A stretch of DNA of 64,000 bases from Aurantimonas aggregata (GTDB lineage Bacteria; Pseudomonadota; Alphaproteobacteria; Rhizobiales; Rhizobiaceae): assembly GCF_010500835.1 (NCBI RefSeq), contig NZ_JAAAMJ010000001.1, forward strand, positions 682,001-746,000. Direction: 5' to 3'. Every line of letters begins with the position of its first letter. Within the stretch, counting starts at the first letter, position 1. The notes under the pieces were generated by a model. That model ran no database searches, was not told where the DNA came from, and saw nothing but the letters and a program-made list of their open reading frames with translations. This document shows, in pieces, positions 15,075 to 22,096 of this stretch. The position numbers and the translations under genes are program-made.

Positions 15075-15359
15075 TCAGTAGCCTGCCGGGCAGCGGTAGA
15101 TGTTGCCGTCGGAATAGCGGCAGTAACCCGGGCGCTCCTGCGAGCGGCCCACGACATTGCCGACGACCGCGCCCGTGCCGGCGCCGATAGCGCCGCCGAT
15201 AAGTGCGCCGCGCGCATCACCGGTAATACCGGCACCGATCGCTGCACCGCCGAGACCACCAATACCGGCGCCCCCTGCCGTGTAGCGGTCTTCCGTCGTG
15301 CAGCCCGATGCCGCGAGCGTCAACGCCGCGACCGCTGCCAATGAAAGCTTTCTGATCAT
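15075..15359 (-). CDS. Glycine-zipper lipoprotein
   Basis: 94 residues. ATG at 15359 is preferred over a TTG two codons upstream because GAGAGG lies six bases before it. Signal peptide and lipobox 'LTLAASGC' at residues 11-18. Residues 25-70 are a glycine-zipper region with repeated G-x-G, 'GGLGGAAIGAG' and 'GGAIGAGTGAVVG', a membrane-inserting motif seen in 17-kDa-antigen-like lipoproteins. The end 'YCRYSDGNIYRCPAGY' has two cysteines. An exact EcfG promoter lies 38 bases upstream and a terminator follows, so it is a likely single-gene stress transcript. Confidence 0.8.
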   Translation of the reverse strand: MIRKLSLAAVAALTLAASGCTTEDRYTAGGAGIGGLGGAAIGAGITGDARGALIGGAIGAGTGAVVGNVVGRSQERPGYCRYSDGNIYRCPAGY

Positions 15360-15396
15360 TCCCAACCTCTCACTAAAACTCGTCGTCCCAGCGTGA

Positions 15397-15421
15397 AACG
15401 ATGAAGGATGACTTTCGTTCC
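15397..15421 (-). promoter_or_regulatory. EcfG-type promoter, GGAAC-N16-CGTT
   Basis: Minus-strand GGAAC at 15421-15417, a 16-base spacer, and CGTT at 15400-15397. This is an exact match to the GSR consensus. The predicted start of transcription is near 15390, about 30 bases before the ATG at 15359. Confidence 0.8.
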
Positions 15422-15849: not shown

Positions 15850-16833
15850 TCAGGCGGACTCGACGGTGGACCGCGAGATGATCTCGTACTGCGCGTCGGG
15901 AATGGTCAGCGTGTAGCGAATACCACCCGGCAGATACTCTAGTCCGGCTTCGCCGCCGACCGCGTTGGGCACGATCCGTTCCAGCGTGGATGTTCCGAAG
16001 CGTGCGTCCCGCTCCGCCCGGACGCGCGGCCCGTTGCGCTCCTGCCAGACCAGCAGCAGGCTTTCACCATCGTCTGTCGTCTGGAACCGTGCCGTGATCG
16101 AGACCTGGCCCCCGGGGACCGACAGCGCGCCATAGGATGCCGCATTGACCGCGAGTTCGTGAAGCGCGAGCCCGACATGCAACGAAGCCGTTGGTGACAG
16201 ATAGACGTCGGGAGCCTCAACCTCGATCTGATCCATGCCGTCTGGCGCATAGCGCTCGACCTGCATGGTCACGAGGCTCAGCAGGTCGGCGCCACGCCAA
16301 TCGGCGTCGGTGACAATGTCCTGCGAATACGACAGTGACTGGATCCGCCCCCGGAAGCGGACGAGGAATTCCGGAACGGTCACCGAATGGCGCGCCGTCT
16401 GGCTGGCGAGGCTCTGGATGATCGCCAAGAGGTTCTTCGACCGGTGCGAGAGCTCGCGAAGCAGCGTCTTGAGGGTCTCCTCCCGACGCTTCTGCTCGGT
16501 TATCTCGAAAGATGTCCCGATGATGCCGCATACTTCCCCCTGCCGATCGCGGTCGACATCGATGCGGACATCATACCAGCGCACCGCCGAGCCGGACGCT
16601 ATCGACAGCTCGAACCGGGCAGGTCGAAGGCTGCGCAGCACTTCCCGTTTCATCGCGGTGGAACGTTCGCTCGCCGCGCCGGAGAGGATGTCGGCGTCGC
16701 CCATGCCTTCCCGCGCGTCGGCAAGCCACGAATCGCCGCCGTTCGACACCCAGCAGTAACGCAGCTCGCGATCTTGGGCGAACACGGACATCTCCGTGTT
16801 GCCTATCGCTCGCATGACCTTGTCTGCCAACAT
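15850..16833 (-). CDS. Soluble PAS-HWE family histidine kinase, candidate PhyR kinase
   Basis: 327 residues with no membrane span. Residues about 10-115 form a PAS sensor domain ('VFAQDRELRYCWVSNGG', 'VCGIIGTSFEITEQKRREE'). Residues 120-200 form the HWE/HisKA_2 dimer domain with phosphoacceptor H130 in 'ELSHRSKNLLAIIQS'. The ATPase domain has 'LALHELAVNAASYGAL' and ends near residue 315. HWE-type kinases phosphorylate PhyR in alphaproteobacteria. Position just downstream of phyR on the same strand supports that pairing. The signal it senses is unknown, and I see no LOV flavin-cysteine motif. Confidence 0.85.
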   Translation of the reverse strand: MLADKVMRAIGNTEMSVFAQDRELRYCWVSNGGDSWLADAREGMGDADILSGAASERSTAMKREVLRSLRPARFELSIASGSAVRWYDVRIDVDRDRQGEVCGIIGTSFEITEQKRREETLKTLLRELSHRSKNLLAIIQSLASQTARHSVTVPEFLVRFRGRIQSLSYSQDIVTDADWRGADLLSLVTMQVERYAPDGMDQIEVEAPDVYLSPTASLHVGLALHELAVNAASYGALSVPGGQVSITARFQTTDDGESLLLVWQERNGPRVRAERDARFGTSTLERIVPNAVGGEAGLEYLPGGIRYTLTIPDAQYEIISRSTVESA

Positions 16834-17093: not shown

Positions 17094-17888
17094 CTAAGCC
17101 GCGGCCTTCCTGTCCGACTCGAAGAACAGTGCCTGGCTGATCAGCGCTTTCACCATGTCCGGGTTGAAGGGCTTCGTGACGAGGAAGGTCGGCTCCGGCC
17201 GTTCGCCCGTCAGCAGGCGCTCGGGGAAGGCGGTGATGAAGATCACCGGCACGGAAACCTTCGCAAGGATGTCGTTGACCGCATCAATGCCCGAGCTGCC
17301 GTCGGCAAGCTGGATGTCAGCAAGGACCATTCCCGGCTTCTGCTTGTCGAACAGGGCGAGAGCTTCCTTGTGAGTCCGCGCGACGCCGGTCACCGTGTGC
17401 CCGAGGCTCTCCACCATCTGCTCGATGTCCATCGCGATCAGCGGCTCGTCCTCGATGATCATGATGTCGGTGGAGACCTGACGGCCGATATCGGAGCTCG
17501 CCTGATCGATCAGGCGGGAGAACTCCGCGTCGCCGAGGCCGAGGATCAGGGCGGCTTCGTCGGTCGTGAAGCCCTCGACCGCGACCAGCAGGAAGGCCTG
17601 GCGTGGCAGCGGGGAAATGGCGCGCAGATTGCGCGAAGCCTTTTCCTCCCAAGCCGAGGTCGGGGCATCCTCGCGGATATTCACCTCGACCGACTGCCAC
17701 AATGACGAGAACAGCTTGTAGAGCGAGATGCGTGGGGTCTGGTCGTCCGGAAAAAGGCTTGGATCAGCAATCAACGTCTCCAGGACCGCTGCGACATAGG
17801 CGTCGCCGCTCGCCTGCGAACCGCTGAGGGCCCGGGAATAGCGCCGGAGATAAGGAATGTGAGGCGCTATGCGGGATGACATCGACAT
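17094..17888 (-). CDS. phyR: General stress response anti-anti-sigma regulator PhyR
   Basis: 264 residues. Residues 1-135 are an ECF-sigma-like domain that mimics the sigma factor. Residues 141-262 are a receiver domain with acidic residues in 'IMIIEDEPLIAMD', phosphoacceptor D191 in 'MVLADIQLADGSSG', T219 in 'FITAFPE' and K239 in 'LVTKPF'. Phosphorylation lets PhyR capture NepR and so free EcfG. ATG at 17888 has GGGAG six bases before it. It is divergent from nepR-ecfG, the classical arrangement. Confidence 0.96.
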   Translation of the reverse strand: MSMSSRIAPHIPYLRRYSRALSGSQASGDAYVAAVLETLIADPSLFPDDQTPRISLYKLFSSLWQSVEVNIREDAPTSAWEEKASRNLRAISPLPRQAFLLVAVEGFTTDEAALILGLGDAEFSRLIDQASSDIGRQVSTDIMIIEDEPLIAMDIEQMVESLGHTVTGVARTHKEALALFDKQKPGMVLADIQLADGSSGIDAVNDILAKVSVPVIFITAFPERLLTGERPEPTFLVTKPFNPDMVKALISQALFFESDRKAAA

Positions 17889-17936
17889 GAAAACTCCCCT
17901 CGTGTCGACCTAAGGATAAGGCACGAATGGGTGCTG

Positions 17937-17961
17937 AATGCCCCGACGGCGAAAAAGTTCC
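17937..17961 (-). promoter_or_regulatory. phyR promoter candidate, GGAAC-N16-CATT
   Basis: Minus-strand GGAAC at 17961-17957, 16-base spacer, CATT at 17940-17937. The transcript would begin about 40 bases before the phyR ATG. The -35 element is one arm of an inverted repeat (AAAGTTCC at 17954-17961, GGAACTTT at 17973-17980). The other arm is the nepR promoter -35. Confidence 0.6.
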
Positions 17962-17972
17962 TCACGTCGGTC

Positions 17973-17997
17973 GGAACTTTGGCTCGTGACGGATGTT
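17973..17997 (+). promoter_or_regulatory. nepR-ecfG promoter candidate, GGAAC-N16-TGTT
   Basis: GGAAC at 17973-17977, 16-base spacer, TGTT at 17994-17997. It would give a leader of about 155 bases before nepR. EcfG commonly activates its own operon, so this fits positive feedback. One mismatch in the -10. Confidence 0.65.
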
Positions 17998-18161: not shown

Positions 18162-18380
18162 ATGGATGATCGCGACACGAAGGATCAGATGTTCCAGGAT
18201 AAGCAGCAGCAGCGATCGCCGACGCCCGCTCCCCAGTACGGCGTGCAGACCGCAATCGGTAAGCGGTTGAGGGCGTACTACGACGACGTCGCCAGCGAAC
18301 CCGTTCCGGACCGCTTCCTGTCGCTTCTGGACGCGCTGGACGCGGCGGAATCGGCGTCGAAGAATGCGGACCGTAAGTAG
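18162..18380 (+). CDS. nepR: Anti-sigma factor NepR
   Basis: 72 residues. It binds EcfG in unstressed cells and is sequestered by phosphorylated PhyR. The conserved core is visible at about residues 28-62: 'QTAIGKRLRAYYDDVASE' and 'PVPDRFLSLLDALDAAE'. The flanks are polar and probably disordered, as in the family. It lies eight bases before ecfG. ATG at 18162 is used; an upstream GTG at 18129 would add an atypical 11-residue extension. Confidence 0.92.
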   Translation: MDDRDTKDQMFQDKQQQRSPTPAPQYGVQTAIGKRLRAYYDDVASEPVPDRFLSLLDALDAAESASKNADRK

Positions 18381-18388
18381 GTTCATTG

Positions 18389-18937
18389 ATGAGCGAACAG
18401 CACGATTTCCGCCGGGAACTGATCGCGATCATTCCCAACCTTCGAGCTTTTGCCGCCTCGCTGTCGGGCTCGTTCGATCGAGCCGATGACCTGGTTCAGG
18501 AAACTCTCGTCAAGGCTTGGGACAAGCAGCATACCTTTCAGCCAGGCACCAACCTGAAGGCGTGGCTCTTCACCATCCTGCGCAACGAGTTCTACACCCA
18601 GATGCGCAAGAAGGGCCGCGAGGTCCAGGATGTCGACGGCATCCACGCGATGCAGCTGGCCGGCCATCCCGAACAGCAGGGGCATCTCGACCTGCAGGAT
18701 TTCCGCAGGGCGCTCGACATGCTGCCGGACGACCAGCGCGAGGCGCTGATCCTCATCGGCGCGTCGGGCTTTTCCTACGAGGAAGCTGCCGAGATCTGCA
18801 AATGCGCGGTCGGCACGATCAAGAGCCGCGTGTCGCGGGCTCGAACCCGCATCGCCGAAATTCTCGGGATCGATGGCGATGGCGAATACGGCCCGGATTC
18901 GATTTCGTCGCAGATCATAGGCGTCTCGGCGGCCTGA
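18389..18937 (+). CDS. ecfG: General stress ECF sigma factor
   Basis: 182 residues of the ECF15/EcfG group. Region 2 spans about 10-80 ('FAASLSGSFDRADDLVQETL', 'LKAWLFTILRNEFY') and region 4 about 105-160 ('LDMLPDDQREALILIGASG', 'YEEAAEICKCAVGTIKSRV'). ATG at 18389 is used, not the TTG one codon earlier. It directs RNA polymerase to GGAAC-N16-CGTT promoters. Several such sites occur in this window. It is in one operon with nepR. Confidence 0.96.
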   Translation: MSEQHDFRRELIAIIPNLRAFAASLSGSFDRADDLVQETLVKAWDKQHTFQPGTNLKAWLFTILRNEFYTQMRKKGREVQDVDGIHAMQLAGHPEQQGHLDLQDFRRALDMLPDDQREALILIGASGFSYEEAAEICKCAVGTIKSRVSRARTRIAEILGIDGDGEYGPDSISSQIIGVSAA

Positions 18938-18963: not shown

Positions 18964-18988
18964 GGAACCGTCCGGCTGCAAAGCAGTT
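18964..18988 (+). promoter_or_regulatory. EcfG-type promoter variant, GGAAC-N16-AGTT
   Basis: GGAAC at 18964-18968, 16-base spacer, AGTT at 18985-18988, about 70 bases before the DUF883-type gene. It has one mismatch in the -10 element. It would drive the run of small genes from 19061. Confidence 0.6.
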
Positions 18989-19060: not shown

Positions 19061-19417
19061 ATGGCTTCCGATATCAGTTCGAACGACGTCAAGATGGCTG
19101 GCAAGCCGAGCGGTCCCGGGACGAACGAGGGCAAGCATGACATCGAGGCCGAGCTGGCTCGGCTCCGCGAGGATGTCAGCGGCCTTGCCGAAGCCCTGAA
19201 GGCCGAGGCTTCCAATCGTGCCGACGGCGCCCGCCAGCAGGCCTTTGCGCTGCGTGACGACGTACGCGAGCGCGGCGAGCGCTACATGCGCCAGGCACAG
19301 GACGCCGCTTCGGACCTGGAAGAGCAGTTGAGCGAGAGGGTCCGCGCCGAGCCGATCAAGGCTGTCCTGATTGCAGCCGCCGCGGGCTACATCTACGCGC
19401 GTCTGTTCCGCCGCTGA
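19061..19417 (+). CDS. DUF883 / ElaB-YqjD family membrane-anchored protein
   Basis: 118 residues. A charged, helix-forming region (about 28-95, rich in E, R and A) is followed by a C-terminal hydrophobic anchor 'AVLIAAAAGYIYARLFRR'. The family is stress-induced and inner-membrane anchored. Some enterobacterial members bind ribosomes in stationary phase, which cannot be assumed here. An alternative ATG lies 12 bases upstream at 19049. The next gene starts two bases after its stop and is YqjE-like, as in the enterobacterial yqjD-yqjE pair. Confidence 0.8.
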   Translation: MASDISSNDVKMAGKPSGPGTNEGKHDIEAELARLREDVSGLAEALKAEASNRADGARQQAFALRDDVRERGERYMRQAQDAASDLEEQLSERVRAEPIKAVLIAAAAGYIYARLFRR

Positions 19418-21763: not shown

Positions 21764-21788
21764 GGAACCGTCGCGGCGCCGTGCCGTT
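21764..21788 (+). promoter_or_regulatory. EcfG-type promoter, GGAAC-N16-CGTT
   Basis: GGAAC at 21764-21768, exactly 16 bases, CGTT at 21785-21788. Exact consensus, 49 bases before the DUF1328 gene. Confidence 0.8.
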
Positions 21789-22071: not shown

Positions 22072-22096
22072 GGAACCGAAAGGTGTCGAGTCGGTT
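22072..22096 (+). promoter_or_regulatory. EcfG-type promoter variant, GGAAC-N16-GGTT
   Basis: GGAAC at 22072-22076, 16-base spacer, GGTT at 22093-22096. One mismatch. It lies 90 bases before the PRC-barrel gene. Confidence 0.6.

Follow-up and report, generated by a model that had tools for sequence, protein, structure and literature searches.

The phyR–nepR-ecfG intergenic region of Aurantimonas aggregata

The window, by which we mean the whole analysed stretch of 64,000 nucleotides from Aurantimonas aggregata, carries a PhyR–NepR–EcfG locus in which the nepR-ecfG operon lies divergent from phyR (Table 1). For nepR an alternative start is possible at an upstream GTG (18129), and the ecfG product has 5uxx_A, described as 'RNA polymerase sigma factor', as its best PDB match. 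PhyR of the window is identical to that of locus L146, and the source organism is close to Aurantimonas endophytica. In gene order, divergence and predicted EcfG-dependent promoters the locus is like those described in the available sections of earlier reports, according to which phyR and nepR-ecfG usually point away from each other, each unit with an EcfG-dependent promoter (PMC8103513; PMC4814048). Likewise, the two corresponding units of Sinorhizobium meliloti, rsiA1 and rsiB1, are rpoE2-dependent, with mapped RpoE2-dependent start sites, in the part of the study at hand (PMC3616915). Given that divergent EcfG control is known in relatives, both promoters were themselves to be expected here.

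Table 1. Features of the phyR–nepR-ecfG region, in window coordinates.
Feature	Position	Strand	Remarks
HWE-family histidine kinase, candidate PhyR kinase	15850–16833	-	Pfam HWE_HK, PAS_4; downstream of phyR
phyR, anti-anti-sigma response regulator	17094–17888	-	Pfam PhyR_sigma2, PhyR_sigma-like, Response_reg (PF22029, PF22233)
phyR promoter -10 CATT (N16)	17937–17940	-	Pattern match
T-tract TTTTT adjoining phyR -35	17952–17956	-	Read from sequence
Inverted repeat AAAGTTCC-N11-GGAACTTT	17954–17980		Both -35 elements and the first T/A bases beyond
phyR promoter -35 GGAAC	17957–17961	-	Pattern match; N16 to -10
11-nt spacer between -35 elements	17962–17972		In relatives, sequence free and length constrained
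nepR-ecfG promoter -35 GGAAC	17973–17977	+	Pattern match; followed by TTT
nepR-ecfG promoter -10 TGTT (N16)	17994–17997	+	Pattern match
nepR, anti-sigma factor	18162–18380	+	Pfam NepR PF18557, 8.6e-18
ecfG, general stress ECF sigma factor	18389–18937	+	Pfam Sigma70_r2 and r4_2

Two sites in the gap match the EcfG (ECF15) promoter pattern GGAAC-N16/17-CGTT or a near variant of it, namely GGAAC-N16-CATT on the minus strand (17961-17937) and GGAAC-N16-TGTT on the plus strand (17973-17997). In S. granuli, EcfG promoters have both CATT and TGTT among their -10 variants, as far as the accessible portion of that paper goes (PMC7083833). Judged by these matches, the phyR and nepR-ecfG promoters are probably active in Aurantimonas aggregata; a scan of the phyR-nepR gap for sigma70-type promoters and terminators found none. 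An earlier note on this DNA had described an 8-bp inverted repeat whose arms are the two outward-facing -35 elements, and this description was confirmed: the arms, AAAGTTCC at 17954-17961 and GGAACTTT at 17973-17980, are 100% complementary with 11 nt between them, each comprises a -35 element and the first three T/A bases after it, and each has a matching -10 at N16. The -35 elements face outward at a start-to-start distance (d) of 16 bp.

The pattern AAAGTTCC-N3-25-GGAACTTT matched once in the window and never in 100 dinucleotide-preserving shuffles, and AAAAGTTCC-N2-32-GGAAC was found once in the 4.86-Mb genome, at the phyR-nepR gap. No enrichment was seen for GTTCC-N0-30-GGAAC in the same genome (161 matches vs 165 for the reversed pattern), nor any excess of AAAAGTTCC-N2-32-GGAAC across 61 family genomes (71 matches vs 123 for the reversed pattern).

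Promoter spacing in the family and across the class

To follow the pair through relatives, we assembled a family set (f1) from a sample of the window's family, where 165 of the 199 genomes sampled yielded a PhyR, and 80 named loci; the latter include 11 Devosia and one Pelagibacterium, possibly of another family, all twelve with d = 12-14. Dropping 12 repeat upstream sequences reduced the 224 loci to 212, of which 210 had a divergent nepR/ecfG in view (L083 and L125, at a contig end, did not). Conservation in close relatives, which the earlier note had set as a test of its proposal, held for the geometry of most loci and failed for some: after de-duplication, 182 of 204 f1 loci had two promoters, with d = 10-17 in 162, 18-22 in none, 23-26 in 14 and other values in six, while the exact GTTCC...GGAAC pair was missing in 25 of the 210 loci. 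Nine of these 25 are named Aureimonas or Jiella, and three others (L105, L106, L118) have GCTCC instead of GTTCC. Near relatives that lack the exact pair are L155-L159 (Aureimonas), L154 and L161 (Jiella), L163 (Aurantimonas sp.), L024 and L025; some of them have the nepR-side GGAAC only and others neither element, with the divergent genes retained.

Among the 175 f1 pairs with -10 support, the phyR -10 was mostly C[G/A]TT, with GTT/ATT at N16 in 158 and at N17 in 17, and the nepR -10 was similar (160 at N16, 13 at N17). The identity of the two extended -35 sequences, to which the earlier note had attached weight, is present in the window and is not what relatives keep: the arms were identical over at least 8 bp in 68 of the 175 pairs, and 72 shared only GGAAC, so that this identity in itself does not appear to be important. 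What is kept is the length of the spacer. Spacer lengths were confined to 5-12 or 18-21 nt (inter-quartile range 7-9 nt), while 169 of the 175 spacers were distinct in sequence, which argues that length is held and sequence is not. Even between the window and its Aurantimonas endophytica relative (L146) the spacers differ in both sequence and length, despite identical PhyR.

One alternative is that two independent EcfG promoters lie near each other by history or compaction, with a slow, functionless drift of their spacing. Both genes are EcfG targets in relatives and vertical inheritance is strong inside families, as this explanation would have it. Yet on a quick tree of 173 rows, built from the short sequences of the PhyR N-terminus and EcfG, the exact spacer length changed at least 65 times amid unconserved spacer sequences and nevertheless stayed in narrow length classes; the short or long class changed five times, giving six long clades, compared with a mean of 14.6 changes for shuffled labels (20 shuffles). 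In addition, the distances on the flanks are far more variable than the spacer (SD of 17 nt from the phyR start to its -35 and of 59 nt from the nepR -35 to ecfG), so the gap is not merely compacted. When promoters were re-paired across 187 f1 loci (before de-duplication), a mean of 21% fell at d = 10-17 (maximum 30% in 2000 rounds) vs 89% observed. We consider independent, merely neighbouring promoters improbable.

A further possibility, that a dimeric regulator of both genes also uses the dyad as its operator, would suit the position of an inverted repeat between divergent genes. However, the arms match only the EcfG -35 and its T-tract, symmetry did not extend into the spacer above chance (none in 136 of 175 pairs), and spacers of 5-12 and 18-21 nt are ill-suited to one rigid dimer. 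With no inner symmetry above chance and a variable spacing, we dropped this reading, which we regard as very improbable indeed.

For the class-wide survey, the best plus-strand and the best minus-strand site at most 300 bp upstream of phyR were chosen independently, and de-duplication by shared 80-mers reduced 421 loci to 401 (52 family codes, unevenly sampled). The class sample omits L380, L385 and L388 (no divergent nepR/ecfG in view) and L284 (too short); its remaining loci, as well as L406, L444, L448 and L451, were retained without a check for divergent nepR/ecfG. Both promoters scored above threshold at 349 of the 401 phyR loci. Close pairs with d = 10-17 made up 228 of these 349 and came from 19 families, the usual distance being 12-14 bp; pairs at 15-17, the window (16) among them, are off the mode. 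No locus fell at 18-21, 19 fell at 22-27, two at 28-32, seven at 33-37, none at 38-41, 18 at 42-47 (15 of them from a single family, f55), none at 48-55, four at 56-58 and three at 59-70. The two promoters were interleaved at 28 loci with d = -28 to -26, a further 17 loci lay at -23/-22, and the rest numbered 23.

The same distance pattern was obtained with a scoring blind to T-tracts, with search widths of 200, 300 and 400 and with two thresholds (299-326 two-site loci, 2 at 48-55). In reversed-sequence controls, the T-blind score gave two two-site loci, both at -22/-23, and the earlier score gave ten, six of them at -22/-23. We regard the peak at 10-17 and the empty gap at 18-21 as solid. 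The farther steps are suggestive: a ladder near 13, 25, 34, 45 and 57 bp suggests helical phasing from the sequences, with few families contributing beyond d = 26 and with the loci at 28-32 and 59-70 lying between steps. At the lineage level and before de-duplication, a phase-fixed V-test gave p about 0.01, with 15 of 20 long lineages within a quarter turn, and a phase-free periodicity test was not significant (p = 0.64).

T-tracts and overlapping promoter forms

As in the window, the -35 elements of close pairs are often followed by a run of T. We scored TTTT within six bases after GGAAC; the site score used to choose promoters included a small T bonus that was equal across distance classes. 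At the phyR promoter such a tract was present in 187 of 228 close pairs (d = 10-17), in 11 of 21 pairs at d = 22-30 and in 2 of 38 above 30, compared with 1 of 45 overlapping pairs, 4 of 17 other pairs and none of 10 single sites. At the nepR promoter the corresponding counts were 98 of 228, 7 of 21 and 2 of 38, and 1 of 45 overlapping, 0 of 17 other and 1 of 21 single sites. By family, the phyR tract predominated in 16 of the 22 that have pairs at d = 10-30 and in 1 of the 21 that have none (Fisher p = 5e-6). Since the tract occurs in just 2 of 38 distant pairs, it cannot account for the farther steps of the ladder.

We also counted TTTT at EcfG-like sites (GGAAC-N16/17-CGTT) throughout two genomes. 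In genome G177 it was found at 1 of 97 sites, this one being at the phyR locus itself, and in G000 at 1 of 48. The 97 matches in G177 compare with 35 for the reversed-pattern control and are thus most probably real sites, whereas the 48 in G000, compared with 55 in the control, show no excess and thus represent true promoters poorly. The near-absence of the tract at other EcfG-like sites argues that it is tied to pairing and not to EcfG recognition in general.

By rough arithmetic, at d = 13 some 16 bp separate the first G of the -35 from the centre of the partner's tract upstream of it, which puts this centre at around -50; at d = 25 it lies at around -61. On other promoters the C-terminal domain of the polymerase alpha subunit (alpha-CTD), which docks on UP elements, acts at positions near -50 and -61. 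A curvature produced by planar A-tracts was set aside, since at the modal spacing our arithmetic puts about 2.3 turns between the tracts.

In some families the two promoters overlap outright. At many of loci L305-L334 (f21) and at four of L300-L304 (f37), a stretch of about 32 bp, some 20-125 bp upstream of phyR, contains the phyR and nepR promoters fully interleaved, one on each strand: GGAAC is followed by GTTCC 26-28 bp on, and each -10 lies inside the partner promoter. Some of these loci are near-dyads of the form GGAACC-N2-AACG...CGTT-N2-GGTTCC, for example GGAACCAAACG...CGTTTGGTTCC in L306. In family f32 (L395-L398, L400-L404) the form is GGAAC-N17/18-GTTCC, about 45-105 bp upstream of phyR and mostly a palindrome, GGAACC-N15/16-GGTTCC, in which every element can serve as the -35 of one strand and as the -10 of the opposite one. 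We take f21 to be Sphingomonadaceae and another family, f3, to be Xanthobacteraceae, which is a guess.

The -22 class is in part a scoring artefact, since GTT nearly matches the reverse complement of GGAAC and the class also turned up in reversed controls; we would rely on it chiefly in f32, which has exact -35 elements. In family f6 (L370, L371, L381-L384, L389, L391) the phyR promoter is EcfG-like on the opposite strand too (d = -22), and the same loci have a back-to-back nepR site at 13-15 bp as well. Considering the size of the polymerase, the overlapping promoters of f21, f37 and f32 probably cannot seat two polymerases at once. Full overlap in some families means that co-occupancy is not required throughout the class, and the trait that many families have in common is the closeness of the promoters and not double occupancy.

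A possible coupled unit and comparable systems

The interleaved forms would fit plain mutual exclusion, in which overlapping footprints leave one slot and competition sets the ratio of PhyR to NepR/EcfG and damps noise at high induction. There are precedents for this in the parts of two studies available to us: at the divergent hrpL promoter, neighbouring elements are occluded by RNAP-HrpL, an ECF holoenzyme (PMC5263251), and under strong activation there is competition at sigma70 bidirectional promoters, which can repress the divergent RNA and lowers noise (PMC12825309). However, mutual exclusion predicts any distance below about 40 bp, at odds with a peak at 10-17 and an empty gap at 18-21, and leaves unexplained why T-tracts are limited to close back-to-back pairs. 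We therefore see plain competition as a possible but rather unlikely explanation; on the earlier note's suggestion that two EcfG holoenzymes might compete or cooperate, the statistics of spacing and T-tracts speak for an influence of the two on each other, and mildly for a face-dependent interaction in preference to competition alone.

With both promoter sequences, the conservation of their geometry, the sequence-free spacers and the link between T-tracts and close pairing established here, the reading that we favour is mutual upstream contact, with plain competition next. The repeat might be the core of a compact bidirectional EcfG unit whose promoters are set by helix face, contact each other and are coupled, a proposal to which we give a little under an even chance. 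The spacing kept in hundreds of relatives, or shifted by about one turn, suggests one such coupled unit and not two neighbours. In the close class we infer a selected unit on which two EcfG-RNA polymerases would interact in a helix-face-dependent manner.

According to this proposal, two EcfG-RNA polymerase holoenzymes would bind the repeat back to back, one transcribing phyR leftward and the other nepR-ecfG rightward. Selection on the distance between the -35 elements would make the two complexes meet on a particular face of the helix, usually at 12-14 bp (16 in the window) or roughly a turn farther apart. The T-tract that follows either -35 would then lie near -50 of the opposite promoter, in the docking zone of the alpha-CTD, and each promoter would serve as an upstream contact site for its partner. 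Coupled firing could buffer the ratio of PhyR to NepR/EcfG while all three rise. Occupancy, be it simultaneous or sequential, the alpha-CTD contact and the effect on the ratio are all putative steps.

Extended to the Alphaproteobacteria, the proposal becomes more tentative, and we would put it at perhaps a third: the master stress promoters might form a helically phased pair, on which two identical holoenzymes, at steps near 13, 25, 34, 45 and 57 bp, reach across the -35 elements to touch one another or the partner's DNA. In the close form the promoters would be mutual upstream activating elements, and other lineages would have replaced this pair by ECF promoters that are palindromic or fully interleaved.

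For both genes, divergent control by EcfG is already known; for the spacing rule we found no report: searches turned up no paper on the distance between the phyR and nepR-ecfG promoters, and one combining 'EcfG' with 'bidirectional promoter' returned no paper at all, within a coverage that leaves out most subscription journals. The available text of the PhyR–NepR–EcfG papers (PMC8103513; PMC4814048) describes divergence and positive feedback, and no spacing rule, T-tract or dyad. Promoter distance is likewise unmentioned in the accessible sections of PMC3892343, PMC7083833, PMC6180224 and PMC3420878, and in the transcriptome paper on S. melonis no word of the main text starts with divergent, palindrom or bidirectional (PMC6599016).

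The E. coli sigma70 bidirectional promoters of Warman et al. are similar in being one short two-way DNA unit on which polymerases may interfere, but in the portion of the paper at hand they have a shared or overlapping symmetric -10, with starts mostly 18, and also 10 or 23, bp apart (PMC12825309). In the window, by contrast, the -35 elements are central and abut without sharing or overlapping core elements, the predicted starts, near 17930 on the minus strand and 18005 on the plus strand, are about 75 bp apart and the sigma factor is of the ECF type. The overlapping forms of other families, with overlap of core elements in f21, f37 and f32, come nearer to that kind than the window pair does. 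The hrpL/hrpJ divergent region of Pseudomonas syringae likewise has an ECF holoenzyme acting on an adjacent divergent promoter, but there, in the sections available, the promoter acted upon is a sigma54 one and is repressed (PMC5263251), while here the same sigma factor is expected for both promoters. If true, a spacing rule upheld amid spacer turnover across many families would suggest that neighbouring polymerases could act directly on each other, and would make testable how activator, anti-sigma and sigma factor are balanced under one positive feedback in the general stress response.

Other EcfG-like sites occur in the window. GGAAC-N16-CGTT at 15397-15421 on the minus strand lies about 30 nt before a minus-strand gene at 15075-15365, a candidate EcfG target whose product is glycine-zipper-like with a lipoprotein-like signal and Pfam scores just under the cut-offs. 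Plus-strand sites stand ahead of the gene after ecfG (site 18964-18988, gene at 19061), of a DUF1328 gene (21764-21788, about 21840) and of a PRC-barrel gene (22072-22096, 22186). By these sequence matches, the window may contain a cluster of stress-regulon genes.

Elsewhere, 30 loci around EcfG-like sites contained one divergent pair within 70 bp (d = 54, L462). In G177 (contig C1), divergent EcfG-like pairs at 3722622-3722691 and 4885652-4885741 have d of 24 and 44, on the ladder; a further pair at 3720696-3720792 has d = 52, off the ladder, and one at 4914003-4914029 is a -22 palindrome.
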